Origin: a virus
Virus record (IMG/VR): IMGVR_UViG_3300048839_000484
Location: 1-47,727 of that record
Reading direction: 5' to 3' (one strand)
DNA length: 47,727 bases
Below are positions 1,740 through 46,771 of this stretch, in pieces. A model generated the notes under the pieces. That model worked only from the letters and a program-made list of their open reading frames with translations. It did not search any database and was not told where the DNA came from. Positions within the stretch are counted from its first letter, which is position 1; each line of letters opens with the position of its first letter. The translations under genes were made by a program, and so were the position numbers.

Positions 1740-4129
1740 TGGCCCGCATCCCCCGCGTCATTGCGGAGCGCAGTCTGGACACTGCGCCGCAGACCATGCC
1801 GCGCTACCGGGCGGCTACCGGCGCTGCCGCGGCCACGGCGGCGATCGGCAACAGCCTGCTCAATGCCGGCGCCGACATGATGGCCCGCGAGCAGCGCGCG
1901 CGAGAGAACCTCGAGGACTTTGTTGCCGACCAGGAATTCCAGAAGCACGCCGCGCGGCTGGACGGCCGGCTGGACGAGGAGCGCCGCAAGGCCCCGCCCG
2001 GCGCCATGGGTCTGACCGAGGGCTTTGTGCCCGTGATCGAGGACGAAAACCGCAAATGGCTGAATGAGAGCGGGCGCGTCCCCGAGCGGCTTAAACCGAA
2101 ATATGAGGCGCGCGCCGGCCTTCTGACCGAGCGGCTGCGCAACCGGGCGGCCGACGTCGAGTATGCCGACCGGACGACGTTCTTTCGCGATGCTGTCACC
2201 GCGCGCGCGGGCGAGCTTGGCGTCATGGTGGCCGGCGACCCGGACACGTTCACGGGCGCGCGCGAGAAGCTGTTTGCGGACATCGACAAGACCAATCTGC
2301 CGGCGGCCGAGAAAAACGCGCTGAAATCCCGGCATGGCTTTGTGCTGGCCGGCGCCACCGTGGACGGGCTGATCAAGTCGCAACGCTACGACGAGGCCCG
2401 TTCGCTGGCCGCGACCTTTGCCGGCTATGGCAAGGGCACCGCCGTCGCCATGACGGACGAGAAGCGCGCCGCGCGCGACGAAATCACCCGCGTTGCGACC
2501 GAGGCGGGCGTGGACGCGAACAGCGTGGTGGCTTTCGCCATTCTGGAAAGCGGGCTCGATCCCAACGCGAAGAACCCGAACAGCACCGCGGCCGGGCTGT
2601 TCCAATTCCGCGAGAAGGAGCGCAAGCGGTTTGGCCTCGAGCCCGGCGCCCCGCCCGAGCAGCAAGCCCGCGTGGCCGTGGAATGGCTGCGGGAGAAGGG
2701 CGCCGAGCTTGACCGCGCCGGCATCCCGATCACCCCGGCGACCCTGTATCTTGCGCACTATCAGGGCACGGCCGGCGCCAAGGCGATCCTTGCAAACCCG
2801 GACAAGAAGCTGTCCGACGTGCTGGACCATGTGGGCGAGGGCGCAGGCCACGGCGCGCGCGTGATCGAGGCCAACAAGCTGGACCCGAATATCACCGCCG
2901 GCCAGTTTGCCGGGCAGGTGACGAACAAGGTGAATGCGGCCATGATCGCGGCCGGCGCCACGGATTTGGGCTTTACCGAGCGCGCGGCCATGGTGGACCG
3001 CACCGAGACGGCGATCCGCGCCGACGAATACCGGCGCCAGCACGCCGATCGCGAGGAAACCCGCAAGGTCAAGGACCTCGTTGAAAACGACATCGCCTCG
3101 ATCCGCGCCACCGGCAAGGAAATCGGGGAGCTTTCCGAAGCGCAGGTATCCGACAGGCTAGGCGCCGACACCGCCAGGCAGTGGGTGATCAAGCGCGAGC
3201 AGGCCCGCCGGTACTTTGAAAGCACCAAGGACTTCGACGTGCTGCCGGGCCAGGACATCAGCGCCCGGGTGACGCAGCTTGCCGACGACGCCAAGAAAGC
3301 GGCCGGCACCGCCGGCTATGTCGGCGCGCAGGAGCTTTACGAGACGGCGCGCAAGAAGGGGGACGCGATCCTGAAATTGCGCGAGGACGATCCCGCGCGC
3401 GCCGTGGAGCAGGACCCGGACGTCGGCACCGCCCTGTCCGCGCTCGACATGGGCAAGCCGTCGACGGTGCAGGCCCTCGTCGGCGCCCGCATGGCGGCAC
3501 AGAAGCGCATCGGCATCCCGCCGAACAGCCTTATGCCGGTCACCAACCGCGAGGCCCGGGAAATCGCCGGCACGCTGGACGCGGCGCTGCCGAGCGAGCG
3601 CGTCAAGACCATGCGCCGCGTGGTGACCGAAATTCAGATGCTTTATGGCGATTGGGCGGACGAGGTGTTCACGGCCGTCGCCGGGCAATTCATCAAGGAC
3701 CGCGAGACGCGCGAGCTTGCCGGCGGCGTGCTGAAAAAGATGGGGCTTGGGCAGCCCGTCACCCCGGCCGACGCGCGCAAGCTGGACGTGGGCGAGGACG
3801 CCGAGCGCACCCGCCGCGCGCTGGCCGGACAGCAGCCAGGCAGCGGCGCCCCCGGCCCGGACCCGAACAAGCAGCCGGCCGAGAAGCGTGACCCCTCGAG
3901 CGTGGCCGAAGTCGAGAAGCACCGGCTTTCCTTCAAGCCGGCGAAGCCGATTGACCGCGAGAGCTTCCGGCGCATCGTCGCCAACCCGGAAACCGCCGCG
4001 GCCTTTGACGAGGAGTTTGGCGCAGGCGCGGCGCAATGGGTGCTGAAAGGCGTGGAGCTTGTGACGCAGCAGGGCGGCAAGAAGCCCGGCGCCGAGAAGA
4101 AGCCGGCAACGGAGGGTGCCGGTGGCTAA
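1739..4129 (+). CDS. Virion-associated lytic transglycosylase / internal virion protein
   Basis: This 796-residue protein begins at the ATG that overlaps the preceding stop. Residues 1-240 are helical and Ala/Arg-rich. Residues about 250-370 form an SLT-type lytic transglycosylase domain: the putative catalytic glutamate is E270 in an ILESGLDP context, followed by the typical NSTAAGLFQF stretch. The rest is helical with a Pro/Gly/Lys-rich tail. The expected role is local peptidoglycan cleavage during genome delivery, as for the transglycosylase internal proteins of T7-like phages. It lies between the small ejection protein and the giant ejection protein and overlaps the latter by 8 bp, consistent with a common ejection complex. 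Confidence 0.82.
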   Translation: MARIPRVIAERSLDTAPQTMPRYRAATGAAAATAAIGNSLLNAGADMMAREQRARENLEDFVADQEFQKHAARLDGRLDEERRKAPPGAMGLTEGFVPVIEDENRKWLNESGRVPERLKPKYEARAGLLTERLRNRAADVEYADRTTFFRDAVTARAGELGVMVAGDPDTFTGAREKLFADIDKTNLPAAEKNALKSRHGFVLAGATVDGLIKSQRYDEARSLAATFAGYGKGTAVAMTDEKRAARDEITRVATEAGVDANSVVAFAILESGLDPNAKNPNSTAAGLFQFREKERKRFGLEPGAPPEQQARVAVEWLREKGAELDRAGIPITPATLYLAHYQGTAGAKAILANPDKKLSDVLDHVGEGAGHGARVIEANKLDPNITAGQFAGQVTNKVNAAMIAAGATDLGFTERAAMVDRTETAIRADEYRRQHADREETRKVKDLVENDIASIRATGKEIGELSEAQVSDRLGADTARQWVIKREQARRYFESTKDFDVLPGQDISARVTQLADDAKKAAGTAGYVGAQELYETARKKGDAILKLREDDPARAVEQDPDVGTALSALDMGKPSTVQALVGARMAAQKRIGIPPNSLMPVTNREAREIAGTLDAALPSERVKTMRRVVTEIQMLYGDWADEVFTAVAGQFIKDRETRELAGGVLKKMGLGQPVTPADARKLDVGEDAERTRRALAGQQPGSGAPGPDPNKQPAEKRDPSSVAEVEKHRLSFKPAKPIDRESFRRIVANPETAAAFDEEFGAGAAQWVLKGVELVTQQGGKKPGAEKKPATEGAGG

Positions 4130-7100
4130 ATTCCCCCAGGGCGGCGGCGAGCAGCAGCAGGCCCGCACCGTCGGCCCGGACGCACCGCACTGGCAATCCC
4201 TGCAGAGCCAGCCCATGCCGACGATCCTGCCGGGCGGCGACGGCGAGGAAATGGAGACGGTCGGGCTGGCATCGCCCGCGCCGGTCCCGACCACGACCAA
4301 GGCCGAGCCGACCCCGGGCGAAATCGCCCAGGACGGCGAGGTGGCGCCCAAGCAGGCCGAGCCGCGGCCGGGCATGTGGGAGCGTTTCGTCGCGAACTAC
4401 GATGACATGCAGTACAAGGGCACGCTTGGCGGCAGCGGCATGTTGGCGAACATGCGCGAGCTTGCCGAGCGCGGCCCGCCGGCACCGGACGCGCCGGACT
4501 TCGAGCGCGAGGCCTATGACCGCGCCACCAAATGGTGGACCAGCGCCAAGGCAGACATCGCCTACAGCGAATTGATCCCGCCGGCCGAGGGGCCGCTGGA
4601 ATACACCGTGGCCGGGCTAGGACAGCTTGCCGGCGGCATCATGACCCCGGAGAGCGCGCTTGGCATCCCGTACCGCGCCGCGAGCGTGGGCGGCCGGTTG
4701 CTCACCGCGGGCGTCGAGGGCGCCGTGATCAACACCATCACCGACCCGCTTGTGCAGATGACCAACAAGCGCGCCGGCATCCGCGACGAATTCGACGTGT
4801 GGCAGACCGCTTTCGCGCCCGTGACGGGCTTCATTGGCGGCGTGGCGATCCAGGGCGGTTTCGACCTTGTGCGCGCCGGCTACCGGCAGACGATCGGCCG
4901 CATCACTGGCAAGCTGCGGGAGCCTGCCGAGCCCGCGGCCGCACCGGAGCCGAGTGCGGCCGCACCCACCCGGGCCGGCGCCGTGGACGCGGCCTTGACC
5001 GAAACGGCGCCCGTCGGCCAGGCGCGGCCGGGTGCTTCGTTGGAGAGTGAGCAGACCTATCGCGTGCGCGTGCGCGACCTGCAGACCGATCCGCAATCGT
5101 TTCAGTACAAGAGCGGCGGCGACACCGAGGGCGTGACGACGGCGCTGAAAGGGATCGAGGCCTTCGACGAGGCCAAGGCCGGCCGCATCATCGTGTTCCA
5201 GCGCAACGACGGCGAACTGATCGTGGCCGACGGCCATCAGCGCACCGGGCTCGCGCGCCGGCTGATCGCCGCGGGCAAGGAGCCCGAGGACTTGGAAATC
5301 ACCGCGCTGGTCTATCGCGAGGCCGACGGCTACCGGCCCGAGGACGTGCGCGCGATCGCGGCGGCGGCCAACCTCGCCACCGGCACCGGCAGCGCGACCG
5401 ACGCGGCCAAGGTGCTGCGGGTCCGCCCCGACCTTGTGGACGGCACCCTGCCGCCGAACAGCCAGCTTGTGCGGGACGCCAAGGGGCTGGCGAAGCTGTC
5501 GGATGACGCTTTCGGCATGGTGGTTAACGACGTTGTTCCAGAGCGTTACGGCGCATTGGTCGGAAACAACTTCAACGAGCCCGACATGCAGACCGTCGCC
5601 ATGCGGGCGATCGCCAAGCTGGAGCCGCAGAACGCCGACGAGGCGGCCATCCTGATCGAGCGCATCAAGAGCGCCGCCGTCGAGAAGGCGGCGAGCAAGG
5701 CCCAGGGCAGCCTCTTCGACGACATGTTCAACGAGGCGGAAAGCACCGTTGGCGAGGAAATGCGCATCGTCGGGCGCGCGCTGCGGCGCCTGAAATCCGA
5801 CGCCACCCTGTTCCGCGGCGCCGTGCGCAAGGCCGAAAGGCTGGAAGAGACGGGCAGCAAAATCGAGCGCCAGGCGAGCCAGCAGGCAGCCGATGAAGCA
5901 GCAAAAGCGGCCTTTCTTGCGGAGAAGAGCTTTGACACGGCCGGCCCGATCCGCGCCACGCTGACCGAGCTTGCGCGCCAGGTGAAGCGCGGCGAGGTGA
6001 CAATGGCCGACGCCGCGCAGAAATTCGCTGCCGCGGTCAAGGGCGCCGAGGGCGAGGCGCCGGCAACGGAAAAGCCAGCCCTTGTTGTCGCGCGCCGCGC
6101 GCCGGACGGCACGGTCCATTACGGGAAGCCCGGCCAAATTCACGCGGATTTGCTGATCGACGAAGGCATTTCGACCGACCCGAAGGTGGCCGGCGAAATG
6201 GGGTTTGCGATCCCCGGCGGCCCATTCCTGACCCGGAAAGAAGCTGCAGACTACGCCGGCACCAAGGGAAACGTGGTCAATCAGTTGGCCGGCGGCCTCG
6301 AGGCGGCGCAGTATTTCCGCAAACCGGCGCCTGATCTGTTCGGGGAACCGCAGGCCAAGGTGGCCGCGCTCGAAACCCCGAAGCCCGGCAGCCGCCAGCA
6401 GCTTGAGGCCCTGATCGCCAACAAGGCGCCGGCCGACGATATTCTGGCGCACCCGATCGTGCGGGAAGCCGACCGGCTACAGCGCGAGCAATCGCCCGGG
6501 CCGGACATTGCGGCGATCGAGGCCGACGCCACCTATCGCGCCAACCGAGTGTTCCGGTTCGACGGCGAGGAGGTGATCGGCTACGACGCGGCCCTGCCCC
6601 GTCTTGTCGAGATTGCCCGCGCCTTTGCCGAGGGTCCGGTTGCCAACGAGCGCCGCGCCGTGATCGTGACCGGCCCGCCGGCTGCCGGCAAGTCGACGCT
6701 GGCCGAGGGGCTTGCCCGCGCGCGCAAGGCCGCGATCGTGGACAGCGACGAGGCCAAGAAGGTGCTGCCGGAATTCGGCGGCGGGCTTGGGTCCGGCGTG
6801 GTGCATGAGGAAAGCAGCTACCTTAACCGCCTCGTGATGGCCGAAATGATCGCGGACGGCGGCAACGTGGTCATCCCCGTGGTGGGCGCCGAGCCGGCCA
6901 AGGTGCGAGCGCACGCGCTGGTATTGCAGGAAGCGGGCTACACCGTCGACCTTGTGAACCTGCAGGTGGACCCGGACGAGGCATTCCGCCGCATGGTCGC
7001 GCGCTACCTCAAAACCGGCCGTTTCATCACGCTGGACTATTTCAACAGCATTGGCGAGAAGCCGCTTAACGGCTACCGCCAGCACGCCAAAGAGGGCATT

Positions 7101-11048: not shown

Positions 11049-12436
11049 CTATTTCGAGCATCAGCATTGCCCGCAAATCCTACACCGGCAACGGCGCCAC
11101 CACGGTCTTTGCCGGGCCGCCGGCCGTCGAGGCCGCCCATCTGATCGTCAAACTGTTCAACACCACCACCGGGATCATGGGCGACCCGCTGGACATCAAC
11201 GTCGATTACACCGTGACCGGCGCGGGCACGATCGCCACCGGCCAGGCGCGGCCCGATACCAGCATCACCATGGCGGTGGCGCCCACCGCATCGCAGGTGC
11301 TTTACATCGACTTGTCCCCGCCGTTGCTGCAGGAGCAGCAATATCCCGAGGCCGGATCGTTCCCGGCCTTGGCACACGCCGAGGCGCTGGACTTGGTAGC
11401 CATGCGGCTGCAGGCGATCCAGCTATTGCTGCGCCGCGCGATCCTGTTGCCGGACGGCAATGCCTTCCTCGATTTTGTCGTGGACGCCGACCCGGCCGAG
11501 CGCCGCGGCAAGACCATCGCTTTCGACGACGACACCGCGGCGCTGCCATCGCTGGCCGAGCTTTCCGTTTCCAGCTTCCATTTCGTGACCGGGGCGCCAT
11601 CGTCCGGGCTTGGAAAGAACGGCGACGTCGCGATCGATGATGCAAGCTGGAACGTCTATTACAAGGTTTCCGGGGCGTGGACCTTGCGCGGGCAGATTGA
11701 AGGCCCGACCGGTGATCCCGGCAATCAATGGTACAGCGGCGCGGGCGTGCCGAGCGATGCAACCGGCATCGACGGCGATATGTATTTCCGCACGTCCAAC
11801 AGCGACATTTACCAGAAGGCGGCCGGGACGTGGGGATCACCGATCGCCAATATCCAGGGCGCGAGCGGCGCAGGCACGGGCGACGTGGTGGGGCCGGCCG
11901 GCGTGACGGACGGGCGCATTGCCCTGTTCGACGGCGCCACCGGCAAGCTGATCAAGCAGCACACGGGCGCCCCGGGCGCGCTGGCGGTGCTGAATACCGT
12001 CGACACCGCGCAGATCGACGACGAGGCGATCACGCTGGCGAAGATCGCCGCGGCTGCGCTGGCGACCGCGGCCGAGATTGCCGACAACACCGCCGACAAG
12101 ATCATCACGACGGACGAGGCGTGGACCGCGGCCGAGCCCGAGGCAGTGGCCTATGCGGGATCGTGGGCGCCGGACCTTGACGACGGCAATTTCCAGACCA
12201 TGACGCTGACCGGCGCGCTCAATATGGGCAGCCCGACCAATGCCAAGGCCGGCCAGCCCGTCGTCATCGTGCTGGAGCAGGACGGCACGGGCGGGCGGGC
12301 CATCACCCTGCCGTCGGAATTCGAGCTTGGCAGTTTCACCCCCTCGACTGCGGCCAACGCCGTGGACGTGATCGCCGGCATCGTGCTGGACACCTCCCCG
12401 CTGCGGATCGTCGGCAGCTACAAGGCGGGCGTCTAA
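11045..12436 (+). CDS. Tail fibre protein
   Basis: This 463-residue protein starts in an ATGA overlap with the giant ejection protein. The first 160 residues look like the T7 gp17-type adaptor that attaches a fibre to the tail: a YTGNGATTVF-like start, DINVDYTV, and a helix with LVAMRLQAIQLLLRRA. It is followed by a short collagen-like stretch (GPTGDPG near residue 220), repeated beta-type segments and an Ala/Asp-rich region before a C-terminal beta domain. The likely role is host recognition. The C-terminal fold is not recognised. Confidence 0.75.
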   Translation: MTISSISIARKSYTGNGATTVFAGPPAVEAAHLIVKLFNTTTGIMGDPLDINVDYTVTGAGTIATGQARPDTSITMAVAPTASQVLYIDLSPPLLQEQQYPEAGSFPALAHAEALDLVAMRLQAIQLLLRRAILLPDGNAFLDFVVDADPAERRGKTIAFDDDTAALPSLAELSVSSFHFVTGAPSSGLGKNGDVAIDDASWNVYYKVSGAWTLRGQIEGPTGDPGNQWYSGAGVPSDATGIDGDMYFRTSNSDIYQKAAGTWGSPIANIQGASGAGTGDVVGPAGVTDGRIALFDGATGKLIKQHTGAPGALAVLNTVDTAQIDDEAITLAKIAAAALATAAEIADNTADKIITTDEAWTAAEPEAVAYAGSWAPDLDDGNFQTMTLTGALNMGSPTNAKAGQPVVIVLEQDGTGGRAITLPSEFELGSFTPSTAANAVDVIAGIVLDTSPLRIVGSYKAGV

Positions 12437-17435: not shown

Positions 17436-18738
17436 CGTCCAACTCCATATCGCGGGCGTCATATCCGGCCCGCCAGTGGCGCACTTGCATCGGCTCGAGC
17501 TTGACCGGGGCGACACCACTTAACCCCTTGTCGCGCGCAAGATACCCCTCGATCCAGAACTTGGACATGGTGGGGTGCTTGGCCTTGGCCTCCTCCTCTG
17601 TCAAATGCGGCGGCTCGGGCTTTTTGTCGCCCGTTCGCCGCAGGAAGGCCGGCACTTCAAGCTGATCGTCCTCTTTCTCGACCCCATCCGCATCGTGTTC
17701 GATCGGCTTGCCGTCGCCATCGACCGGGCCTTGTGCCGGATCGACCCGTTCCTCCCCGGTGCTGATCGACTGGCCGGTGGTCGGCGGGGGTGTTTCATCC
17801 TTCGGGACCGGCGCCGGCTTTGGTTTTGTGGCCTTCGGCTTGTCCGTCTTTGGCGCAGCGCCGCCCGTGGGCGCGCTGGTTTCCTTTTCAGGCCCCGGCG
17901 TAGCCGCCGCGAAGGATTGGAGCGATGCAGGCCCGGCTGTGGCCGCCGTGGTCGCCTGTTCCGGCTGGTCCGGGTCCGGGTATAGCTCCTCTGGCGTGGT
18001 CATGCCGTCATTGAGCGCCTGAATTTGGGCGATCACCCGGGCAATCAGCTTGGCGTCCCAATCCTTGGCCGCGATCCCGTGCGCGCGCTCGACCCGGGCC
18101 AGCGGTATCCCGTAGGTTTCCAGCCGCTCGACCGCCTTGGCGCGGTAGTGTTCCAGCTTTTCGCCCACATGCTGGACGAGGCTGGCCTTGGCCGCTTCCA
18201 GCGCAATGTCGGAGAAGATACCGAGCGAGTTGACGATGCAATTGCGCAGCGCCTTGGAGGCGCCAATCTGAAAGGCAATGTCGCGCTGGCGCTCGGCTTG
18301 CGTCCCCTGCCCCTGCCCCTGTGATTTGCGTTGCTGGAACGGCCGCACATATTCGTAGCCGGTTTCAAAATCGACGAACCGGGCAAAGAGCGTCCAATGT
18401 GAGGGCGTTTCCTCGACCCGGGTGATTTCAGCGGCGCAATTGCCATAGAGCCGGGCCAGATCGTTCGTCATCTTGACGCTTGGCCCCTCGATCGTGGTTT
18501 TGCCGTCCTTCCGCTTCGAGTGCTTGTCGTTGACGTCCCACGAGTAGAACCAGCTATCGCCGGCTGCCGCCGCATATTGCCGGATTTTGGCGATCACCTG
18601 TCCCTCGACCCGCTTGACGGCGACGGCGAGCGCGCCGGCAGGGCGGATCGAGACTTGTTGCGGGAGGCCGGGCGGGATGATGCTGCCTTCATCCTCGATC
18701 CGGCTGGCGAATGCTTCCAGGGCGCGTTCGGTATCCAT
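17416..18738 (-). CDS. Putative single-strand-annealing recombination protein
   Basis: This 440-residue protein begins three bases after the exonuclease stop. The N-terminal 260 residues match a phage family recognised by IEGPS (83-87), YGN (98-100), a DxETG segment (about 123-127), RPFQQR and a final IGASKALRN helix. The C-terminal 180 residues are low-complexity Pro/Ala/Lys with a charged tail. Pairing with a YqaJ/lambda-type exonuclease strongly suggests it is the annealing partner (RecT/Red-beta/Erf-like function). A clear RecT signature is absent, so the fold is unproven. A GQGQGQ run comes from three tandem 6-bp units at about 18304-18321. Confidence 0.55.
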   Translation of the reverse strand: MDTERALEAFASRIEDEGSIIPPGLPQQVSIRPAGALAVAVKRVEGQVIAKIRQYAAAAGDSWFYSWDVNDKHSKRKDGKTTIEGPSVKMTNDLARLYGNCAAEITRVEETPSHWTLFARFVDFETGYEYVRPFQQRKSQGQGQGTQAERQRDIAFQIGASKALRNCIVNSLGIFSDIALEAAKASLVQHVGEKLEHYRAKAVERLETYGIPLARVERAHGIAAKDWDAKLIARVIAQIQALNDGMTTPEELYPDPDQPEQATTAATAGPASLQSFAAATPGPEKETSAPTGGAAPKTDKPKATKPKPAPVPKDETPPPTTGQSISTGEERVDPAQGPVDGDGKPIEHDADGVEKEDDQLEVPAFLRRTGDKKPEPPHLTEEEAKAKHPTMSKFWIEGYLARDKGLSGVAPVKLEPMQVRHWRAGYDARDMELDDAAEGS

Positions 18739-19656: not shown

Positions 19657-19759
19657 TGAGTGCCCCCTTGTGCTGTTGGAAAGGTTTGGCATAGATGCTT
19701 CGCGCTTGTCTCACAAGTGAGACTTGACAGCCAATGGGCAAATCAGATCGGGATTTCAC
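19657..19759. promoter_or_regulatory. Divergent regulatory region with palindromic operator
   Basis: This 103-bp gap lies between the leftward exonuclease and the rightward Cro-like gene. It contains the 16-bp palindrome GTCTCACAAGTGAGAC (19708-19723). On the minus strand, TTGTGA inside the palindrome is followed after 17 bp by TATGCC, a weak leftward promoter. On the plus strand, a consensus -35 TTGACA (19724-19729) abuts the palindrome, although no good -10 follows. The half-sites TCTCA/TGAGA with a 4-bp spacer recur at 22787 and 25749, so this is probably the phage's switch operator. Confidence 0.65.
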
Positions 19760-20065
19760 ATGCGCAAGGTCAACACAGTGGACGAACTGATCGACGCTTT
19801 CGGAGGCCCAAAAGCCTTTGCCAAAGCGGTTTATCCGACGTCGCCGGCCCCGACCGCGCGTGGCGGCACGGTGCGGCTGCGCAAGTGCATACCGTTCCCG
19901 CGATGGGGTGCGACAATTCAGCGCGCCGCCGAGCGGGGCATCGAGGTGACGCACGCGCAGCTTGCCGAATGGCACGCGGCGCAGCGCGGCCGGCAATACC
20001 AGGGGAGGAAACATGGCCCAAAGCGAGCGCAACGGCATCATCCGCAAGGGCGTGCGCAGGATTGA
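19760..20065 (+). CDS. Cro-like helix-turn-helix regulator
   Basis: This 101-residue basic protein is divergent from the exonuclease across the operator region. Residues 1-75 have the layout of small Cro/YdaS-type regulators: ELIDAFGGPKAFAKAV as first helices, then RGGTVRLRKC and a WGATIQRAAERGI helix followed by HAQLAEW. The tail is Arg/Gln/His-rich and overlaps the next gene. It is the best candidate to bind the adjacent GTCTCAC/GTGAGAC palindrome and autoregulate. The start is the ATG at 19760; a longer frame upstream would run into the -35/operator sequence. Confidence 0.6.
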   Translation: MRKVNTVDELIDAFGGPKAFAKAVYPTSPAPTARGGTVRLRKCIPFPRWGATIQRAAERGIEVTHAQLAEWHAAQRGRQYQGRKHGPKRAQRHHPQGRAQD

Positions 20066-20246
20066 ATGGATCGACCGGGAAATCCGCCGGCTGGCCGGCA
20101 ACCGGCGGGCCGAATACCGGCACTTGAAGCAGATCGGCGTGGACCCGGGCGCCCTGCATGACTTGATCCGCGAGCGGCGGGACGGGAAGGAAACCGCCGG
20201 GCGACGGCGCCGGGCGCTATCGGGATTGCGCCGCATCGTCCGATGA
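20013..20246 (+). CDS. Small basic hypothetical protein
   Basis: This 77-residue protein starts at an ATG with a strong AGGGGAGGAA Shine-Dalgarno, inside the 3' end of the Cro-like gene. It is Arg-rich and helical. The arrangement RIEWIDREIRRLAGNR, EYRHLKQIGVD, ALHDLIRERR loosely recalls the DUF2312 layout of the GapR-like protein three genes later, but without clear identity. A DNA-binding role is plausible from charge only. Its stop overlaps the HNH start. Confidence 0.55.
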   Translation: MAQSERNGIIRKGVRRIEWIDREIRRLAGNRRAEYRHLKQIGVDPGALHDLIRERRDGKETAGRRRRALSGLRRIVR

Positions 20247-20949: not shown

Positions 20950-21719
20950 TCGAGGAGCGGGGGTTTATCGCGATCCAGCGCGACCTGTTTGAACACCCGT
21001 TGTTTGCCGGCGATGCTTTCAGCCGGCGCGAGGCGTGGATTTGGCTGGTCGCCGCCGCGGCCTACAAGCCCAAGGGGCGCCGGTTCCGGTTCGGCGCGGT
21101 CAACCTCGAGCGCGGCCAGCTTGCCGTCACGATCCGCGAACTGTGCGACCTCTGGCTTTGGCCGATCGGCGCGGTGCATCGCTATCTTGCGGTTTTGTCG
21201 GCCGAGGCCATGATCGCGCTCGACCATGGAACGCAGACTGGAACGCACATTGGAACGCAACTAAAGCGTAAAGTCACCGTCATAACCATTTGTAATTACG
21301 ACAAATTCCAAGTCACGTCGAAAAACAATCCACAGGACTTGGAACGCAAACTGGAACGCAATGTGGAACACAAAGGGGAAGAAACCCCAATGTTTCCAAT
21401 GCTCGACGGCAACCTAACAAGTAAACCAAAGGAACAAATATCTAGAAAGGAAAAGGATGCCGGGAAGGGGAAGCGGCCTACGGCAGCGCAATCACCCATG
21501 CCGGGCGACGGCTTTGTGAGCGAGCGCCGGAAGCTGCGGTTTTGCCACTACCAAAGCCCAAGCTGGCGCATCTATGCGGCCAATTTCCGCGACGTGCATG
21601 GCGTTGAGCCCATGCCCGTGACCTACGCCGACGGCCGCGGCCGGTGGTTCAAGCTGTACGGCGAGACGGGGAACGCAGCGCACCTCTGGCGCGCGGACCG
21701 GATCGAGGAGGCGGGATGA
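20946..21719 (+). CDS. Replication initiation-like protein (lambda O style)
   Basis: This 257-residue protein is coupled to the GapR-like gene. Residues 1-125 read as a winged-helix replisome-organiser domain: [47 protein letters not shown], and [11 protein letters not shown]. The middle (about 130-190) is polar and linker-like and is encoded by markedly AT-richer DNA. The C-terminal part is a small basic/aromatic domain. Two groups of three 12-bp iterons lie inside the gene (21227-21259 and 21340-21372), as the lambda origin lies inside gene O. It probably binds them and recruits the host helicase. Confidence 0.7.
21227..21259 (+). repeat. Iteron group 1 (three 9-bp units, 12-bp period)
   Basis: TGGAACGCA occurs exactly at 21227, 21239 and 21251, spaced by 12 bp (just over one helical turn). 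This group is read by the host gene as a Gly-Thr-Gln/His repeat. The same DNA unit recurs at 21340 in a different reading frame, so the conservation is at DNA level. Confidence 0.85.
21340..21372 (+). repeat. Iteron group 2 (three units) next to AT-rich DNA; probable origin
   Basis: TGGAACGCA lies at 21340 and 21352, with TGGAACACA (one change) at 21364, again with a 12-bp period. Here the gene reads the units as Leu-Glu-Arg/His, a different frame from group 1. About 80 bp of AT-rich DNA separates the groups, and more AT-rich, A-loaded sequence follows to about 21460. The arrangement resembles an iteron origin with an unwinding region. Confidence 0.8.
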
Positions 21720-22732: not shown

Positions 22733-22800
22733 TGCGACACCCTGCCGCAGTTTGACCCCTTGCATTTGGTATCCGTGCGGATACTGTCTCAATTGTGAGA
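22733..22800 (+). promoter_or_regulatory. Regulatory promoter module A
   Basis: Three elements in order: TGCGACACCCTGCCGCA (22733-22749, an imperfect palindrome), TTGCAT (-35, 22760-22765), a 16-bp spacer, and TACTGT (-10, 22782-22787). The perfect palindrome GTATCC-GTGC-GGATAC (22769-22784) overlies spacer and -10. The operator TCTCAATTGTGAGA (22787-22800) overlies the start region. The same order and spacing recur at 25694-25762. It should drive the small-gene cluster beginning at 22816. Confidence 0.8.
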
Positions 22801-22815
22801 GGCAAGGGAGACAAG

Positions 22816-25595: not shown

Positions 25596-25686
25596 GCCGG
25601 CTCCGCCGATGGCGCTGTTGCTGATCGGCGCCCTGTCCGGCGCGCTGGTCGGTTTCATCGCCGGCTTTTTGTTGGGGATGGGCTGA
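25564..25686 (+). CDS. Small single-pass membrane protein
   Basis: This 40-residue protein has a GGGAGGAAACC leader giving a strong Shine-Dalgarno. An acidic N-terminus (MDEQEF) is followed by one transmembrane helix from about residue 16 to 37, rich in small residues (GALSGALVGFIAGFLLG, GxxxG-type spacing). Such helices often dimerise. It overlaps the end of the previous gene by 32 bp and is the last gene before promoter module B. Confidence 0.6.
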   Translation: MDEQEFMSNLEPAPPMALLLIGALSGALVGFIAGFLLGMG

Positions 25687-25693
25687 TCCAGGC

Positions 25694-25762
25694 TGCGACA
25701 CCCTGCCGCACCGCAAGCCTCTTGCGTTTGGTAGCCGCATGGCTACTGTCTCAATTGTGAGA
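25694..25762 (+). promoter_or_regulatory. Regulatory promoter module B
   Basis: This repeats module A: TGCGACACCCTGCCGCA (25694-25710), TTGCGT (-35, 25722-25727), a 16-bp spacer, TACTGT (-10, 25744-25749), palindrome GTAGCC-GCAT-GGCTAC (25731-25746) and operator TCTCAATTGTGAGA (25749-25762). Compared with module A, the palindrome has changed T to G on one arm and A to C on the other, keeping symmetry. It should drive the genes from 25892. About 130 bases of leader follow, in which no gene was seen. Confidence 0.8.
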
Positions 25763-27725: not shown

Positions 27726-28112
27726 ATGCCCAAGACCCTAAACCCCGTGGACAAGGCGATCGGCGCCAAGGTCCGAATGCGCCGGATGATGCTTGGCATG
27801 AGCCAGGAAAAACTCGGGGACGCGCTCGGGCTCACGTTCCAGCAGGTGCAGAAATACGAGAAGGGCACCAACCGGATCGGCGGCAGCCGCATGGTGCAGA
27901 TCGCGCACGCGCTGGACGTGTCGCCAGGCTGGTTTTACGAGGGCATGACGCCTGTAATCGGTGGCCCGCCCTATGGTGATCCGATTGCCGAGCTTGCGCT
28001 GACCCGCGAGGGGCTGGCGCTGGCCGTGGCCTATGGCAAGCTGCCGCCGCCGCTGCGCTCGATCGTGGCGAAGGTGGCCGAGCTATTCGTGGAGGCCGCG
28101 GCCGGCAAATGA
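27726..28112 (+). CDS. XRE-family helix-turn-helix regulator
   Basis: The protein has 128 residues. ATG 27726 has a perfect GGAGGAATTCA leader, so it is preferred to the in-frame ATG at 27657. Residues 8-68 are a classical XRE domain (AIGAKVRMRRMMLGMSQEKLG, LTFQQVQKYEKGTNRIG, MVQIAHALDVSPGWFY) of a style very common in Alphaproteobacteria. The C-terminal 50 residues are helical and may dimerise. No peptidase domain is present, so it is not a LexA/CI-type cleavable repressor. It may bind one of the two palindromes in promoter modules A and B. Confidence 0.85.
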   Translation: MPKTLNPVDKAIGAKVRMRRMMLGMSQEKLGDALGLTFQQVQKYEKGTNRIGGSRMVQIAHALDVSPGWFYEGMTPVIGGPPYGDPIAELALTREGLALAVAYGKLPPPLRSIVAKVAELFVEAAAGK

Positions 28113-28321
28113 TGACGCTGGAGGACTGTCGCCGGCTTCGAGCCGCGGCCGAGCGGATCAACCGGGCGCGGGCGCGGCTGGACGAGTTGAAAGAGGCCGC
28201 GGCGACCGACAACACGATCGCCGCCGCGCGCGCCCGCCACGCCATCAGGAAATGCCGCGAGAGCTACGACGAGGGCGTCGCGATCGTGCATTACATCGCA
28301 ACCAGGAGGCCGCCGGCATGA
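28109..28321 (+). CDS. Small helical hypothetical protein
   Basis: This 70-residue, Ala/Arg-rich, fully helical protein (possibly a helical hairpin) is coupled to the XRE gene and the following gene by ATGA overlaps. No motif was recognised. Confidence 0.55.
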   Translation: MMTLEDCRRLRAAAERINRARARLDELKEAAATDNTIAAARARHAIRKCRESYDEGVAIVHYIATRRPPA

Positions 28322-28911
28322 CCACCCGACCCTGCCAGGTTTGCGGCGCCGAGCTACCGCCGCACACGCGCAGCCAGAGTTTTCTCGACCCCAAGACCGG
28401 CCGCCTCGAATACCACACCGAGGCCATGGCGCGCTGGTTTGCCAACAAGGACGGCCGCCTCGAGGAAATCGAGCAATGGCAGGTTTCCGACCGCGGATCG
28501 AAGAAAGGGCTTGTGACCGGCTACACCTACCGGACAGGCCATTGGGGGCACAAGGGCGCCGGGCTGCATTGCAGCGCGATGTGCGCGGCCCGCGCGGCAA
28601 AGAAGGACGAGGGGGGAGCGCGGGCCGCGCTTCCATCAGGGGGCAGCAAGGCGCCGGATATAGGCGCCCCGCAGCCGACCGGCAAGGTGTTTTCCAGCGA
28701 CATGACCGGCCGGCGCTTCCAGCAAATCCGCGAGGGCTGCGGCGCCACGGCCACGGCGTTCGCCAAGGCGCTCGGATATGTCGGCAGCGCCAAGGCCCTG
28801 TATGTGATCGTGCAGCGGTTCGAGACGGAGCGCCGCAAGGTGCCGCCGACCGTGGCCCGGCTGGCCTACATGTTCGAGCGCCACGGCATACCCAGGGGGA
28901 CCAAGACATGA
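28318..28911 (+). CDS. Zinc-ribbon plus helix-turn-helix-like protein
   Basis: The protein has 197 residues. The N-terminus has CQVCGAELPPHTRSQSF, with a second Cys cluster near 84-89 (HCSAMC), so one zinc site is likely. After a Gly/Pro linker, residues about 128-192 form a helix-turn-helix-like region (RRFQQIREGCGATATAFAKALGY, RFETERRKVPPTVARLAYMFE). This suggests a sequence-specific DNA-binding protein, perhaps a transcriptional regulator. It is coupled to both neighbours. Confidence 0.6.
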   Translation: MTTRPCQVCGAELPPHTRSQSFLDPKTGRLEYHTEAMARWFANKDGRLEEIEQWQVSDRGSKKGLVTGYTYRTGHWGHKGAGLHCSAMCAARAAKKDEGGARAALPSGGSKAPDIGAPQPTGKVFSSDMTGRRFQQIREGCGATATAFAKALGYVGSAKALYVIVQRFETERRKVPPTVARLAYMFERHGIPRGTKT

Positions 28912-29099
28912 TGGACCGCGGCAAGGGCGGGCTGATTTCCTTCGAGTGCGAGGGGTGCGGCGAAGTGCTGGATACCAACACGAAGGATTTTGAGGTAGCC
29001 AACGGGATACGCCAGCGCGAGGGCTGGCAGGCCAAGTCTTTCAGCGGGTCCGTCGGCACGGTTTGGAGCCATTTCTGCAAGGATTGCGCACATGACTGA
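28908..29099 (+). CDS. Small zinc-ribbon protein
   Basis: This 63-residue protein starts at the first of two consecutive ATG codons, overlapping the upstream stop. A CEGC pair near the N-terminus and a CKDC pair at the C-terminus would bind one zinc ion. Similar ribbons are frequent in phage early regions. The partner is unknown. Confidence 0.6.
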   Translation: MMDRGKGGLISFECEGCGEVLDTNTKDFEVANGIRQREGWQAKSFSGSVGTVWSHFCKDCAHD

Positions 29100-29220
29100 C
29101 CTTGAACAATGGGCGTGGATTGCCGTCGGGATCGCCGCGTCAACGTGGCTTGGCATCATGGTATTCGCTTTCTGTGTTGGGGTAGCCAGATGGCTACGGT
29201 GGCGGAGGCAAAAACCATGA
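29092..29220 (+). CDS. Small single-pass membrane protein
   Basis: This 42-residue protein overlaps its neighbours by 8 bp (upstream) and 4 bp (ATGA, downstream). One transmembrane helix (about residues 7-31) is followed by a strongly basic tail (RWLRWRRQKP), predicting an N-out, C-in topology. Its coding sequence carries the palindrome GTAGCC-AGAT-GGCTAC seen also in promoter module B. Confidence 0.55.
   Translation: MTDLEQWAWIAVGIAASTWLGIMVFAFCVGVARWLRWRRQKP
29182..29197 (+). promoter_or_regulatory. Third copy of the GTAGCC-N4-GGCTAC palindrome
   Basis: GTAGCC-AGAT-GGCTAC has exactly the arms of the module B palindrome (25731-25746), but lies inside a coding sequence. It lacks the neighbouring -35/-10 and TCTCA-N4-TGAGA operator. 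It could be an extra repressor site or coincidence. Confidence 0.35.
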
Positions 29221-34102: not shown

Positions 34103-35691
34103 ACGAGGACCGCGACATCGTGGCAGAGCTTGCCGCGAAGATTGCGGCCATGCCGGCCGAGAAGCAGGCCGAGCTTGAGGACGGGCTGGCCGAGGAGCTT
34201 GCCGCCAAGTGGCGCCCGGACCCGCGCAACAAGCCCCAGGTGGAAGCATTCTATTCCCCGGCGCAGATCATGCTGTTCGGCGGCGCCGCGGGCGGTGGCA
34301 AGACGGACCTGATCATCGGGCTGGCGCTCGAGAGCCACGAAAAGAGCGTGATATTCCGCCGGCAGAGCATGGACCTGCGGGACATCGAGAACCGCCTGTT
34401 GCACCTCAATCGCAGCCGCGCCGGCTGGAACGGCCAGAAAAGCTATTTGAAGCAGGGCGAACAGGTTATCGAGCTAGGCCACCTTGGCCGCCCGGGCGAC
34501 GAGCAGGACTGGCAGGGCCGGCCCCATGACCTGATCGCCTTCGACGAGGGCGCGCAGATTGAGGAACACAAGGTCCGCTTTGTGATCGGATGGCTGCGAT
34601 CCGCGCGCAAGCAGGACGGCAGCGTGGTGCGGCGCCGGGTGATCATCGGCAGCAATCCACCGGTCGGTGGCGAGGGCGAGTGGTTGATCGACTGGTTTGC
34701 CCCATGGCTCAATCCGTTGCATCCGAAATATGGAACCGTGAAGCCGGGCGAGCTTCTATGGGCGATCATCAGCGAGCAGGGCGAGACGATATGGGTTGAG
34801 GGTCCGGGCTGGTACCAGGTCGAGGGCGAGCCCCGGCCGATCATGGCCATGTCGCGGACGTTCATTCCCTCGTTCCTGAAAAACAACCCGTATCTGGCCG
34901 GCACCGGCTACGAAGCGCAGATCATGCAGCTTCAAGAGCCGTGGCGGACCGCCATGCTGACCGGCAATTTCATGACCGGCCGGCGCGACCATGCGCAGCA
35001 GATCATCCCGGGGGCATGGGTCGACGCGGCCAATGAGCGATGGAAGCGCGGCAAGCCCAAGGTTTCCATGACCGCGATCGCGTGCGACGTCGCCCAGGGC
35101 GGGCTGGCGAACACCTCGATCGCCCGGCTTTGGGGCACATGGTTTGACGAAATGATCCGCGAGCCCGGCCGCAACACCCCGAACGGGCCGAGCATCGCGG
35201 CCCTGATCATCCAGCACCGCCGCGGCATGGCCGAGGTGACGCTGGATTTGACCGGCGGATGGGGCATCAGCGCGCGCGACCACCTCCAGGCCATGGACAT
35301 CGACGTGGCGCCATGCGTGTTTTCGGCCAAGTCCGGCAAGACGACGAAGGACCACAAATTCAAATTCGGCAACCTGCGGGCGCAAATGTACTGGCAATTC
35401 CGCGAGGGGCTGGACCCGGAGAGCAAGGAGGACATCGCCCTGCCGCCGGACCCCAAGGTGAAGGCGCAGCTTTGCACCCCGCGCTTTGAAATCAAGGGCA
35501 ATGAGCTTTACGTCGAGGACAAAGAGGACATCGAAAAGCGGCTCGGAACCACGGTGGACGAGGCCGACGCGATCGTGATGGCATGGTGGCGGCGCGGCTT
35601 CTATGGTATCGCGCAGGCCATGCGGAAGGGCGACCGCAACAAGATGGGGACGACAGCGGAACCCGCCGATCCGCTCAATTGGGAGGATTGA
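34099..35691 (+). CDS. Terminase large subunit
   Basis: This 530-residue protein has the usual length. The ATPase domain carries Walker A GGAAGGGKT (61-69) and Walker B LIAFDE (145-150), with a coupling-type SNPP segment following. The nuclease domain has ACDVAQGG with D330, a DLTGGWG segment and a final DEADAIVMAWW, giving the acidic triad for metal-dependent DNA cleavage. It powers genome packaging into the prohead with the small subunit encoded upstream. It is translationally coupled to the GGQ protein. Confidence 0.93.
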   Translation: MNEDRDIVAELAAKIAAMPAEKQAELEDGLAEELAAKWRPDPRNKPQVEAFYSPAQIMLFGGAAGGGKTDLIIGLALESHEKSVIFRRQSMDLRDIENRLLHLNRSRAGWNGQKSYLKQGEQVIELGHLGRPGDEQDWQGRPHDLIAFDEGAQIEEHKVRFVIGWLRSARKQDGSVVRRRVIIGSNPPVGGEGEWLIDWFAPWLNPLHPKYGTVKPGELLWAIISEQGETIWVEGPGWYQVEGEPRPIMAMSRTFIPSFLKNNPYLAGTGYEAQIMQLQEPWRTAMLTGNFMTGRRDHAQQIIPGAWVDAANERWKRGKPKVSMTAIACDVAQGGLANTSIARLWGTWFDEMIREPGRNTPNGPSIAALIIQHRRGMAEVTLDLTGGWGISARDHLQAMDIDVAPCVFSAKSGKTTKDHKFKFGNLRAQMYWQFREGLDPESKEDIALPPDPKVKAQLCTPRFEIKGNELYVEDKEDIEKRLGTTVDEADAIVMAWWRRGFYGIAQAMRKGDRNKMGTTAEPADPLNWED

Positions 35692-35693
35692 GG

Positions 35694-36464
35694 ATGACGG
35701 TTCGACGCTGGTTTCTGGCCTTTTTCCTGATCCCGGCCATATGGCTGGCCGCGCTCACCCTGCCGGCGCCAGGGCAGAAGGTGACGGGCGGTGGCGTCCC
35801 GATCATCACGACGCAGGCCGAGCCGCCACCCGCCGTCGAGGTGCGCATGTACGGCATGACCGGGCTGGCCGGCAAGCTGTTGGGCTTTTCGCTCGGGGTT
35901 TACGACGTCATGCGCGAGGTGGCGGCCAAGCACCCGACCGTCAGGACTTACGAGCGCACGCACTGGCAATGGCGCGCGGTGCTGGCGACCGCGGAGGCAA
36001 ACTACAAGATCGACGGCAAGCCGATCATCCTGATAGGCCACAGCCTTGGCGCCAACGCCGCGGTGCGCATAGCCACCCGGCTACTCGACAAGGGCATCCC
36101 CGTGGCCGCGGTCTTTGCCTACGATCCGACGCCGCTGGTCTTGTGCGTCCCGCGCAACGTGCAGGCGGCGATCGGCTGGCAGCGGACATGGTGGTTCCAG
36201 CTTGGCGGCGGCAACCTCGAGCCGTGCAACGACTTTGCCGGCGCGATCGAGAAGCACAACACCGATCGGCAGGTGGAAAACGTCGACGTCCCGGGCGGCC
36301 ATGTATGGGTCGACGACGCGCCGCAGGTCCATCGGCTGACCATGAAGCACGTCGGAGAGGTGCTGCACATGCTTGCAGAAATTCGTAAGGGAAAACAGGC
36401 AGATAACGATAACCATGATCCCATGTCGATTTTTTCGACCAAGATAGCGGTGGGATTTCAATAA
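35694..36464 (+). CDS. Secreted alpha/beta hydrolase (lipase/esterase-like)
   Basis: This 256-residue protein starts two bases after the terminase. A basic N-terminus and hydrophobic stretch (about 4-24) form a signal peptide or anchor. IILIGHSLGANAA (111-123) is the nucleophile elbow with S117; D144 in AYDPTP and a C-terminal His (H203 or H213) could complete a triad. The fold resembles lipases/thioesterases. Export suggests a target in the envelope, for example acylated surface lipids, during lysis or adsorption. The packaging-module location is unusual. Substrate is unknown. Confidence 0.72.
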   Translation: MTVRRWFLAFFLIPAIWLAALTLPAPGQKVTGGGVPIITTQAEPPPAVEVRMYGMTGLAGKLLGFSLGVYDVMREVAAKHPTVRTYERTHWQWRAVLATAEANYKIDGKPIILIGHSLGANAAVRIATRLLDKGIPVAAVFAYDPTPLVLCVPRNVQAAIGWQRTWWFQLGGGNLEPCNDFAGAIEKHNTDRQVENVDVPGGHVWVDDAPQVHRLTMKHVGEVLHMLAEIRKGKQADNDNHDPMSIFSTKIAVGFQ

Positions 36465-39836: not shown

Positions 39837-40734
39837 CCGTCCATTGGGTCCGCGCATCGCCTATGCCCCGGAAAACGGGGCTGGCGCTGGCACGGGCAAC
39901 CCGGGTGACGGCGCAAATGGCGCCGGCTTGGGAAACGGGTCCTCGAGCAACAACGGTGCCGGAACTTCCCCGTGGACTGGTCTGGCATTGCCAGAGAACC
40001 AGGAACTGGTGAAAACCAAAAATTGGGCCAATCCTGACGCCGCGCTGCGAAGCTATGCCGAGCTTGAGCGGAAGATGGGGGGCGCAATTTTCTTGCCCGA
40101 GCCGACCGCCGATCCCACCGCATGGGATGGCATTTTCGATCGCATGGGGCGTCCGAAATCCGCTGCAGAATACAAGCTGGAGCGGCCGAAAGACCTCCCC
40201 GAAACAGCCTATGACGCCGATACCGCCGAGCAGATGAAGGGGGTCTTTCACAAGGCCGGCCTTACGCCACGGCAGGCGGCGATCATCCATGACGAGGTAT
40301 TCACGGGCAGCCACAAGGCGAAAGAGGCCCTCCAGGCCGCGAACGCCGAGAAGGTGGCAAAGGCCCATGAACAGATCGTCAAGGAGTATGGCGGCGACGA
40401 GAACAGCGAAGCCTACAAGCGCAACCTTGAACTAGCCAATCGGGCCGTCCGCCAATTCGGCGGGGACGCGCTGCTTTCCGAATTGAAGGAAATCGGCGCC
40501 ATGGACCCCAACGGCTATGTGAAGGCGCCGCTTGTGGCGAAGATGCTGGCACAGGTCGGGAAGCAGCTTTTCCAGGAGGACGCGGTTTACGGCGGCGCCG
40601 GGGACTACAAGAACCCGTTTGCCGACGCGACCATGGACATGGAGAAGCAGGGCGAGATTATCAAAAAGGACCCGGATCGAGCGCGTGCCCTGATCCGAGC
40701 GGCCGGCCACAACCCGGCAGAATGGCAGCTTTAA
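39829..40734 (+). CDS. Scaffolding (capsid assembly) protein
   Basis: This 301-residue protein starts at ATG 39829, with TTG 39823 as the alternative. A disordered Gly/Asn/Ala/Ser N-terminus (about 1-45) is followed by a helical, acidic body (DPTAWDGIFDRMGRP, EALQAANAEKVAKAHEQIVKEYGG) and an Ala/Asp/Arg C-terminus. Composition, size and place between portal and capsid genes fit a scaffolding protein that guides prohead assembly and leaves before packaging. Recognition is by context more than by motif. Confidence 0.72.
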   Translation: MINRPLGPRIAYAPENGAGAGTGNPGDGANGAGLGNGSSSNNGAGTSPWTGLALPENQELVKTKNWANPDAALRSYAELERKMGGAIFLPEPTADPTAWDGIFDRMGRPKSAAEYKLERPKDLPETAYDADTAEQMKGVFHKAGLTPRQAAIIHDEVFTGSHKAKEALQAANAEKVAKAHEQIVKEYGGDENSEAYKRNLELANRAVRQFGGDALLSELKEIGAMDPNGYVKAPLVAKMLAQVGKQLFQEDAVYGGAGDYKNPFADATMDMEKQGEIIKKDPDRARALIRAAGHNPAEWQL

Positions 40735-40784
40735 GGAGGCTGCAGCAAGGAACAGGAGCGCGCACAGTCTGACGGGGAAATCCG

Positions 40785-41792
40785 ATGACTACGCGCCTTT
40801 CCGACGTGATCGTGCCTTCGGTGTTCAACCGCTATCTTTCGGTTGAAACCACGACCAAGAGCGCCATTTTCGAGAGTGGCATTCTGCGACCCGACCCGAT
40901 GTTGAGCCAGTTTCTGGCCGGCGGTGGTCTGACGACCAACGTGCCGTTCTGGAATGACCTCGACGACAGCGAGCCGGACATCGCATCCGACGATCCCGAG
41001 CAGCACGGCACGCCGTCCAAGGTGGACGCAAACCGGGCGCTCGCGATCCGCAACATTCGGACCAAGGGGTGGGCGGCTGCCAAGCTGACCGCCGAACTGG
41101 CCGGGTCGGACCCGATGCAGCGCATCCTGCAGCGTGTTTCGGCTTACTGGACGCGCGCCTACCAGCGCCACCTGACCGCGATCCTGACCGGCATTTTCGC
41201 GGACAACGCTGACAACGACAGCAGCGACATGATCTATGACATCGGCACCGACAGCGGTTCCGCCGTGACTGCGGCCGAGCTTGTGTCCGCCGATGCCATC
41301 CTCGAGGCCGCACAGACCATGGGCGATGCCTCTGACGCGCTCGAGGTGATCATCATGCACAGCCGGGTTTACAAGAACTTGGCCGAGCAGAACCTGATCG
41401 ACTTCATCCCGAACAGCGACGGCAAGGTCAAATTCCCGACCTACCTTGGCTACAAGGTGATCAAGGACGACGGCGTGCGCAAAGTGCAGGGCGCAAACCG
41501 CATCGAGTATTGGACCTATCTGCTTGGGCGCGGCTCGATCGCATGGGGCGAAAGCCCGGTGGACAAGCCCGTCGAGACGGACAGCGACCCGTCGGCCGGC
41601 AACGGCATGGGCGTCGAGGAACTCTGGACCCGGCGCCAGTACATCATGCACCCCTACGGCTTCAAGTGGACGGACACCAATCGCGGTGCCGACTTCCCGA
41701 CCAACAGCGAATGCCAGTTGGCCGCGAATTGGGATCGCGTCTATCCCGAGCGCAAGCAGATCATGCTTGCGGCCCTTGTCACCAACGGCTGA
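40785..41792 (+). CDS. Major capsid protein
   Basis: This 335-residue protein has features shared with podovirus coat proteins of the HK97 fold: FNRYLSVETTTKSAIFESGI, GLTTNVPFWND, WAAAKLTAELAGSDPMQRILQRVSAYW (spine helix) and IIMHSRVYKNLAEQNLIDFIP. The C-terminal part contains the WTRRQYIMHPYGFKW segment typical of the family. It follows the scaffold gene after a 50-bp gap and is followed by a strong hairpin. It forms the icosahedral shell. Confidence 0.88.
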   Translation: MTTRLSDVIVPSVFNRYLSVETTTKSAIFESGILRPDPMLSQFLAGGGLTTNVPFWNDLDDSEPDIASDDPEQHGTPSKVDANRALAIRNIRTKGWAAAKLTAELAGSDPMQRILQRVSAYWTRAYQRHLTAILTGIFADNADNDSSDMIYDIGTDSGSAVTAAELVSADAILEAAQTMGDASDALEVIIMHSRVYKNLAEQNLIDFIPNSDGKVKFPTYLGYKVIKDDGVRKVQGANRIEYWTYLLGRGSIAWGESPVDKPVETDSDPSAGNGMGVEELWTRRQYIMHPYGFKWTDTNRGADFPTNSECQLAANWDRVYPERKQIMLAALVTNG

Positions 41793-41810
41793 TCGCAGCC
41801 CGGATCAACG

Positions 41811-41832
41811 GCCGGCGGGGAAGCCCGCCGGC
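41811..41832 (+). terminator. GC hairpin after the capsid gene
   Basis: GCCGGCGGG and CCCGCCGGC pair perfectly (9 bp) around a GAAG loop, 18 bases after the capsid stop. No T-run follows, so it may partly attenuate transcription or protect the capsid mRNA end rather than terminate fully. Confidence 0.45.
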
Positions 41833-41859
41833 TACCGCAACAGCCAAAGGAACGAAGCC

Positions 41860-42315
41860 ATGGCAAAGAACGTGACCAAGGTGCCGAACCCGGACAAGGC
41901 GCCGACCGAGGAGCAGAAGGCCCAGGCGGCCAACCTGCCCGAGACGCAAGACCTCAATCCGGCCGACGAGGACGAGGCGACGGCCGCCCCGAAGAACGTC
42001 AAGACGGTGCAGGCGCCCAGGCGCAAGACCGTCGACGAAACCAAGGTGCAGGCCGCGGCCGACGCTGCGGCCAATTCCGAGCCCGTGAAGGCTGGCGCCC
42101 CCAAGGGCGGCACGCCGAGCTTGCTGGAGTGCAACCGGCTGGCGATCGAGCAGAAGAAGATCATGCGCGAGAACGAGCCGCTGGCCGGCTTGGAGCGCCT
42201 GATCGGCTTGCACGGCAAGAAGAAGCTTTTGCGCGCCCTGCCGGTGGACCTCGCCAAGGCCAACCAGGACCGCATGATCGCGCAGCCCCCGAGCCCGAAC
42301 CGGGTGCTGCGGTAA
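41860..42315 (+). CDS. Hypothetical capsid-module protein
   Basis: The protein has 151 residues. The first 85 are low-complexity, Lys/Ala/Glu/Thr-rich and likely disordered; the last 65 contain a Leu-rich helix (NEPLAGLERLIGLHGKKKLLRAL). The gene has its own Shine-Dalgarno (AAAGGAAC) and is framed by two hairpins. Not recognised; a head-completion or minor capsid role is suggested by position only. Confidence 0.6.
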   Translation: MAKNVTKVPNPDKAPTEEQKAQAANLPETQDLNPADEDEATAAPKNVKTVQAPRRKTVDETKVQAAADAAANSEPVKAGAPKGGTPSLLECNRLAIEQKKIMRENEPLAGLERLIGLHGKKKLLRALPVDLAKANQDRMIAQPPSPNRVLR

Positions 42316-42328
42316 ACCTTGCGTGCGA

Positions 42329-42352
42329 CCCGGCCGCAATCCCGCGGCCGGG
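42329..42352 (+). terminator. GC hairpin before the decoration-like gene
   Basis: CCCGGCCGC pairs with GCGGCCGGG (9 bp, six-base loop) 13 bases after a stop codon. No T-run follows. It is the second of three hairpins that separate capsid-block genes. Confidence 0.4.
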
Positions 42353-42373
42353 GCCATCCAATAGGAGGCCACT

Positions 42374-43003: not shown

Positions 43004-43012
43004 TCGACAACC

Positions 43013-43046
43013 AGGAGGGGCGGGGCTTCGGTCCCGCCTTTTTCAC
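43013..43046 (+). terminator. Rho-independent terminator lying between an SD and its start codon
   Basis: GGCGGGGC-TTCG-GTCCCGCC (43019-43038) forms an 8-bp stem with a cUUCGg tetraloop, followed by five T (43039-43043): a textbook intrinsic terminator. AGGAGG (43013-43018) directly abuts its 5' side. The next gene's ATG (43047) lies eight bases after its 3' side, so folding would bring SD and AUG to ideal spacing. Confidence 0.85.
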
Positions 43047-43865: not shown

Positions 43866-43867
43866 TC

Positions 43868-46120: not shown

Positions 46121-46139
46121 GCGCGGCGGGAGGAGTGAC

Positions 46140-46769: not shown

Positions 46770-46771
46770 TC

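Follow-up and report, generated by a model that had tools for sequence, protein, structure and literature searches.

Candidate composite promoters with three kinds of dyad, one of them dispersed genome-wide, in an environmental phage genome

How should a promoter-like module be read when it occurs twice in a virus genome and its two copies differ by a matched change in both arms of a palindrome? The window analyzed here is the whole of the IMG/VR record IMGVR_UViG_3300048839_000484 (47,727 nucleotides), a 47.7-kb virus genome with a terminal 127-bp direct repeat (1 to 127 and 47601 to 47727). Its structural genes are podovirus-like (head-tail adaptor phrog_332 and head protein phrog_247), and a YqaJ/RecE-like nuclease, a DnaD-like replication protein, and a C5 methyltransferase are also encoded. 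A search of the genome for tyrosine or serine integrases found none. The plus-strand gene at 27726 to 28112 encodes an XRE regulator (Pfam HTH_3), which we take to resemble PraR in its HTH, and the gene at 20013 to 20246, beside a divergent control region, matches the GapR DNA-binding domain weakly, just under the Pfam cut-off. Together these two genes suggest an alphaproteobacterial host. Within the DnaD-like gene, adjoining a stretch of 42 to 44% GC, TGGAACRCA occurs six times (21227 to 21372) as two sets of three copies that repeat at exactly 12 bp (21227, 21239, and 21251; 21340, 21352, and 21364), an arrangement resembling that of a lambda-type replication origin located within an initiator gene.

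The phage is nearly an orphan. A single 100% identical fragment (L016) was found, and since its identity spans 40289 to 46789 only, outside both modules, it is uninformative on them. A search of IMG/VR for the exact modules found no match, and relatives sought through the neighboring genes were either distant DUF7007 loci with nothing in common upstream or absent.

The duplication itself was confirmed. Module 1 (22733 to 22800) follows the methyltransferase gene (stop at 22729) and precedes a 48-amino-acid ORF (22816), and module 2 (25694 to 25762) is flanked by an ORF that ends at 25686 and by a DUF7007 gene (25892). Both begin with the exact 17-mer TGCGACACCCTGCCGCA on the plus strand (dyad A; 22733 to 22749 and 25694 to 25710), centered at about −53 in module 1 and −54 in module 2. 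The proposal that the modules share their elements and spacing stood for the elements but not for the spacing, as the −35 follows the 17-mer after 10 nt in module 1 and after 11 nt in module 2. The TTGC-type −35, 16-bp spacer, and TACTGT −10 were also as described. The arrangement TTGCRT-16 bp-TACTGT is found at 22760 to 22787 (−35 TTGCAT; predicted start, ∼22794) and at 25722 to 25749 (−35 TTGCGT; predicted start, ∼25756), both on the plus strand, and did not occur in shuffled sequence. Likewise, the core TTGC-N2-TTGGTANCC-N4-GGNTACTGT was present twice in the genome and never in shuffles, and the 45-nt cores of the two modules share 84% identity. A strict consensus promoter scan reported neither predicted σ70-type promoter, and both hexamers are poor matches; the pairs were recognized by eye and from their conservation between modules, their 16-bp distance being compared with the 16 to 18 bp expected of σ70-type promoters. 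A further perfect dyad, CGCAAG-CCT-CTTGCG (25712 to 25726), overlaps the −35 of module 2 and is missing from module 1.

Over the spacer and −10 lies a second dyad, GTATCCGTGCGGATAC in module 1 (22769 to 22784) and GTAGCCGCATGGCTAC in module 2 (25731 to 25746), here called dyad B. Both belong to a family, GTAKCC-N4-GGMTAC, that is dispersed along the genome. The pattern GTANCC-N4-GGNTAC, allowing at most one mismatch, identified 10 sites (3146 to 41820), four of them exact, of which about one would be expected by chance. The other two exact copies are at 28995 to 29010, with mixed arms (GTAGCC/GGATAC), inside the ORF at 28908 to 29099, and at 29182 to 29197 (GTAGCCAGATGGCTAC), inside the ORF at 29092 to 29220; the latter has arms as in module 2 and first surfaced in a 7-bp dyad scan. 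The copies with one mismatch are GTATCCGACAGGCTAG (3146 to 3161), GAAGCCGACCGGCTAC (6465 to 6480), GTAGCCATGCGGCTGC (11396 to 11411), GTATCCCGTAGGTTTC (18105 to 18120, within a minus-strand gene), ATAGCCACCCGGCTAC (36069 to 36084, in the frame of 35583 to 36464), and a possible copy, GAAGCCCGCCGGCTAC (41820 to 41835), which overlaps a GC-rich hairpin 3′ of the head gene and may be a chance match.

A blind scan of all hexamer dyads was swamped by GC-rich hexamers, and controls on spacing and on synonymous codons were therefore chosen instead. With identical half-sites placed at all other spacings from 0 to 40, no exact copy was found, and near matches averaged 0.38 (maximum, 2). Seven dyad B sites lie inside genes, whereas 300 synonymous-codon shuffles gave ∼1.0 on average and never more than 4; coding constraint is thus not the cause of the recurrence. 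The dyad is specific in its spacing and selected at the level of DNA. The codons used at these sites are among the rarest of the genome (GTA, 3%; CTA, 4%; ATA, 2%; AGG, 4%), namely GTA, AGG, and CTA at 3146, CTA at 6465, GTA at 11396, ATA at 18105, GTA and ATA at 28995, GTA and CTA at 29182, and ATA and CTA at 36069. A G immediately precedes the dyad on the plus strand in 9 of the 10 sites, which may reflect a weak asymmetry of the site. In other phage loci (L200 to L279), the arrangement GTAKC-N7-GMTAC occurred 13 times, against 0 to 4 at other spacings, and is possibly another operator or a set of copies of one locus.

These additional copies bear directly on the matched change. The two modules do differ by an arm pair, T:A in one and G:C in the other, from which the sequence-only reading concluded that symmetry was under selection. 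That conclusion did not survive the comparison with the remaining copies, where the arms are not always complementary at the changed position. Across the 10 copies, the left half-site carries T or G at its fourth base, the mirror base on the right being C, A, or T, and three copies have nonmatching arms (GTATCC/GGCTAG at 3146, GTATCC/GGTTTC at 18105, and GTAGCC/GGATAC at 28995), the last of which is nonetheless an exact match to the dyad B pattern. Since the arms vary independently, the changed position looks like a degenerate base of the half-site. By our estimate, two stem substitutions would be complementary by chance about once in 33 (partner position, 1/11; base, 1/3), and the paired change on its own is thus weak evidence. 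The difference between the modules is probably variation that a DNA-binding dimer tolerates in a degenerate half-site. Likewise, of the suggestion that each promoter combines a shared operator with a variant operator, the shared operators held up, and the supposed variant is better taken as a member of a dispersed, degenerate family.

Several known operator systems resemble dyad B in part. As with the stoperators of cluster A mycobacteriophages (L5 and relatives), one site is scattered many times over a phage genome, promoters included; however, the title of the published work describes the stoperator as asymmetric DNA to which a monomer binds (PMC9283540, PMC6550527), whereas dyad B is 2-fold symmetric. 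Stoperator arrays belong to temperate phages whose immunity repressor binds the sites; in this genome, the search for tyrosine or serine integrases found none, and an XRE regulator gene is present. Owing to this symmetry and the integrase result, dyad B was not classed as a stoperator array. The RebR operator of Azorhizobium, GT(A/G)(A/C)C-N4-G(T/G)(T/C)AC (PMC5527310), shares with dyad B a GT..C/G..AC dyad and a 4-bp spacer, but its half-sites are 5 bp rather than 6 bp and its span is 14 bp rather than 16 bp. Regulators of the XRE type, such as TgrL of phiCbK and the host PraR/CdxA group, occur in alphaproteobacterial phages (PMC10688885), and the XRE protein of this phage, with its HTH_3 domain, is taken to resemble this group in its HTH. 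However, in 80 loci of other phages with such regulators, dyad B was at chance level (0.35 per 47.7 kb), and it is thus not tied to the XRE group in general. The PraR-type operator CAAC-N5-GTTG gave 15 matches at one mismatch or fewer, compared with 15.6 expected, none of them in the modules, and was rejected, as was the PhaR motif.

The third dyad, TCTCA-N4-TGAGA (dyad C), lies over the predicted start in both modules (TCTCAATTGTGAGA; 22787 to 22800 and 25749 to 25762). Its only other occurrence in the genome, TCTCACAAGTGAGA at 19709 to 19722, is situated between yqaJ on the minus strand and a small HTH-like gene on the plus strand (19763 to 20065). The proposal of a promoter bearing operator-like dyads is supported, dyad C being common to the modules and another control region of the phage. 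The product of the adjoining HTH-like gene has a weak match, below cut-off, to the NCBIfam entry carph-isopro and, from this match and its position, is a candidate regulator of dyad C. The simplest reading would be a small regulator that controls its own divergent region and both modules.

Dyad A differs from the other two in that it extends beyond this genome. The exact 17-mer was identified in 17 IMG/VR stretches, representing approximately 13 independent viral contigs, and was intergenic in 9 of these 13, small overlapping ORFs deciding a few of the calls (the L022 group, the L027 group with 37 to 41% GC, L026, L029, L030, L031, L033, L034, and L035). If ∼10% of phage DNA is intergenic, we estimate the probability of this outcome at ∼1e−6. 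In five of the nine, the intergenic 17-mer is followed by a TTGC or TTGA hexamer, at a distance of 10 to 11 nt in four cases and of 9 nt in the other. Perfect dyads, TGCGACANNNTGTCGCA, were present in two of the phages bearing the 17-mer. An all-against-all protein comparison of the phages carrying dyad A revealed no common gene or regulator, a search of the isolate phage collection for the exact 17-mer returned none, and nothing relevant to the 17-mer itself was found in the literature.

Three bacterial lineages have perfect dyads in the tldD-coxB interval, the genes being judged from translated neighbors. Among 30 alphaproteobacterial loci (L293 to L322), 9 carried GCGNC-N5-GNCGC within ∼420 bp upstream of coxB, whereas other spacings gave 0 to 6 (median, 1); one of the copies before coxB reads TGCGACAAGCTGCCGCA. 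Across 190 alphaproteobacterial genomes, the perfect dyad A was not clearly enriched (9 sites versus 5 for the control), and exact 17-mers in bacterial genomes were mostly in coding sequence. Plasmid matches were mixed, one of them intergenic and upstream of mqo. In Desulfovibrio cuneatus (L069; 5556 to 5600), the 17-mer is contained in a longer stem (AGAGAG...CTCTCT) with a T-rich tract behind it, and the whole resembles an intrinsic terminator. In many species of the Pseudomonas fluorescens group (L080, L071, and others), it lies 5′ of the promoter-like sequence of an amino acid ABC transporter gene. The DriD site (ATACGAC-N7-GTCGTAT) was considered for dyad A and rejected.

The nearly identical dyad upstream of coxB led us to read dyad A as a box of the RegA type, as did the half-sites GCGNC-N5-GNCGC, which match those of GCGACAGGACGCCGC, one of the Rhodobacter capsulatus RegA ChIP sites (PMC5359404); the boxes of the RegA/PrrA/RegR/ActR (RoxR) group in alphaproteobacteria are the closest known. 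In Acidithiobacillus, RegA sites are generally upstream of the −35 (PMC5506826), and dyad A likewise lies upstream of the predicted −35 in the modules and, at similar distances, in five of the nine other phages; unlike the known boxes, it sits in a phage promoter. Dyad A fits the Bradyrhizobium japonicum RegR consensus GNGRCRTTNNGNCGC at 13 of 15 positions, as do 116 windows of the phage, and the R. capsulatus RegA consensus SSGNVRDNHYSNCSS at 14 of 15 positions, a very degenerate consensus that 1,579 phage windows fit equally well. On these comparisons, dyad A may be the box of a host redox response regulator of the RegA/PrrA/RegR type, an identification that we hold tentatively and at a little under even odds. 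A phage-borne regulator, or a host regulator from outside the RegA family, is a serious competitor whose chances we also place somewhat short of even: the degeneracy of the RegA consensus favors it, as does the position of the Pseudomonas 17-mer before an amino acid transporter gene, but the phages with dyad A have no gene in common, and the dyad precedes coxB in several alphaproteobacteria with the half-sites of a RegA site.

Taken as a whole, we consider it fairly probable (about 0.6) that each module is a composite, protein-regulated σ70-type phage promoter with three different dyad sites, in which protein binding, the pairing of proteins with sites, activation or repression, and the start sites are all predicted from sequence. 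Several operators at one promoter are common in phages, and the sites of P2 Ogr lie near −55. From dyad A, ∼54 bp upstream of the start, a putative regulator of the RegA/PrrA/ActR/RegR type would act from just upstream of the −35. A dimer bound to dyad B, over the spacer and −10, would block the promoter, and dyad C, over the start and common to the divergent yqaJ/HTH control region, could provide a second point of phage repression. The host-regulator site would thus lie upstream, and the two downstream sites for phage regulators would hinder polymerase. The XRE protein is a candidate regulator of dyad B or C, the product of the gene at 28318 to 28911 is another candidate phage regulator, and as module 2 leads into the run of genes holding the XRE gene, feedback would be possible.

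The palindromes could instead work as RNA, the modules lying within longer transcripts in which the three arms form hairpins and, in module 1, a junction covers the Shine-Dalgarno sequence of the 48-amino-acid ORF. Module 1 does fold better than its shuffles (z of −3.1 over 86 nt and −3.5 over 64 nt as RNA; −4.5 as DNA), a possible three-way junction at 22756 to 22808, present in this module only, pairs CCCTTGC with GCAAGGG at the ribosome-binding site of the ORF, and the double change between the modules falls on one stem pair. Module 2, however, gave a nonsignificant z of −1.1 with a different fold, and the ribosome-binding site of its gene is ∼120 nt away; genic copies of dyad B have noncomplementary arms, and an Rfam search at both modules returned no match. 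The structural role offered as an alternative in the sequence-only reading is therefore disfavored, only module 1 folding unusually well, and we regard an RNA hairpin as the function of the modules as very unlikely.

The dispersal of dyad B invites another explanation, in which it serves a different phage process, such as genome organization, packaging, or a nuclease or modification site, and merely overlaps two −10 boxes. Its copies are genome-wide and mostly inside genes, and the lack of an integrase among the genes found makes a lysogenic repressor with dispersed sites uncertain. Against this, two of the four exact copies cover the −10 boxes of two promoters in identical register, and we judge this explanation unlikely. 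The modules might also descend from a recent duplication of one phage promoter, their elements being kept by descent and having little regulatory meaning, as the 84% identity of the cores and the exact 17-mer would allow. The identity is limited to the dyads and promoter boxes, however, the stretch separating the 17-mer and the −35 varies in both length and sequence, and every dyad recurs elsewhere separately; simple descent therefore has little to recommend it. The composite promoter remains our preferred reading.

A wider proposal would be that unrelated environmental phages have each placed a host redox box of the RegA/PrrA/ActR type at a similar distance 5′ of their own promoters, so that phage expression tracks the respiratory state of the host, and that this phage has, in addition, an array of operators dispersed over its whole genome. 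We offer it as a speculative extension with the odds against it. For the reading of phage control regions, the locus carries the lesson that a “compensatory change” seen when just two copies are compared may be misleading, the degeneracy being exposed here by further copies in the same genome. Stoperator-like arrays are known mainly from mycobacteriophages, and dispersed dyad B would extend such arrays to a phage probably infecting an alphaproteobacterium. If the wider proposal is true, phage promoters would sense host respiration through a borrowed host site, and this would be a way in which phage genes are timed to host physiology.
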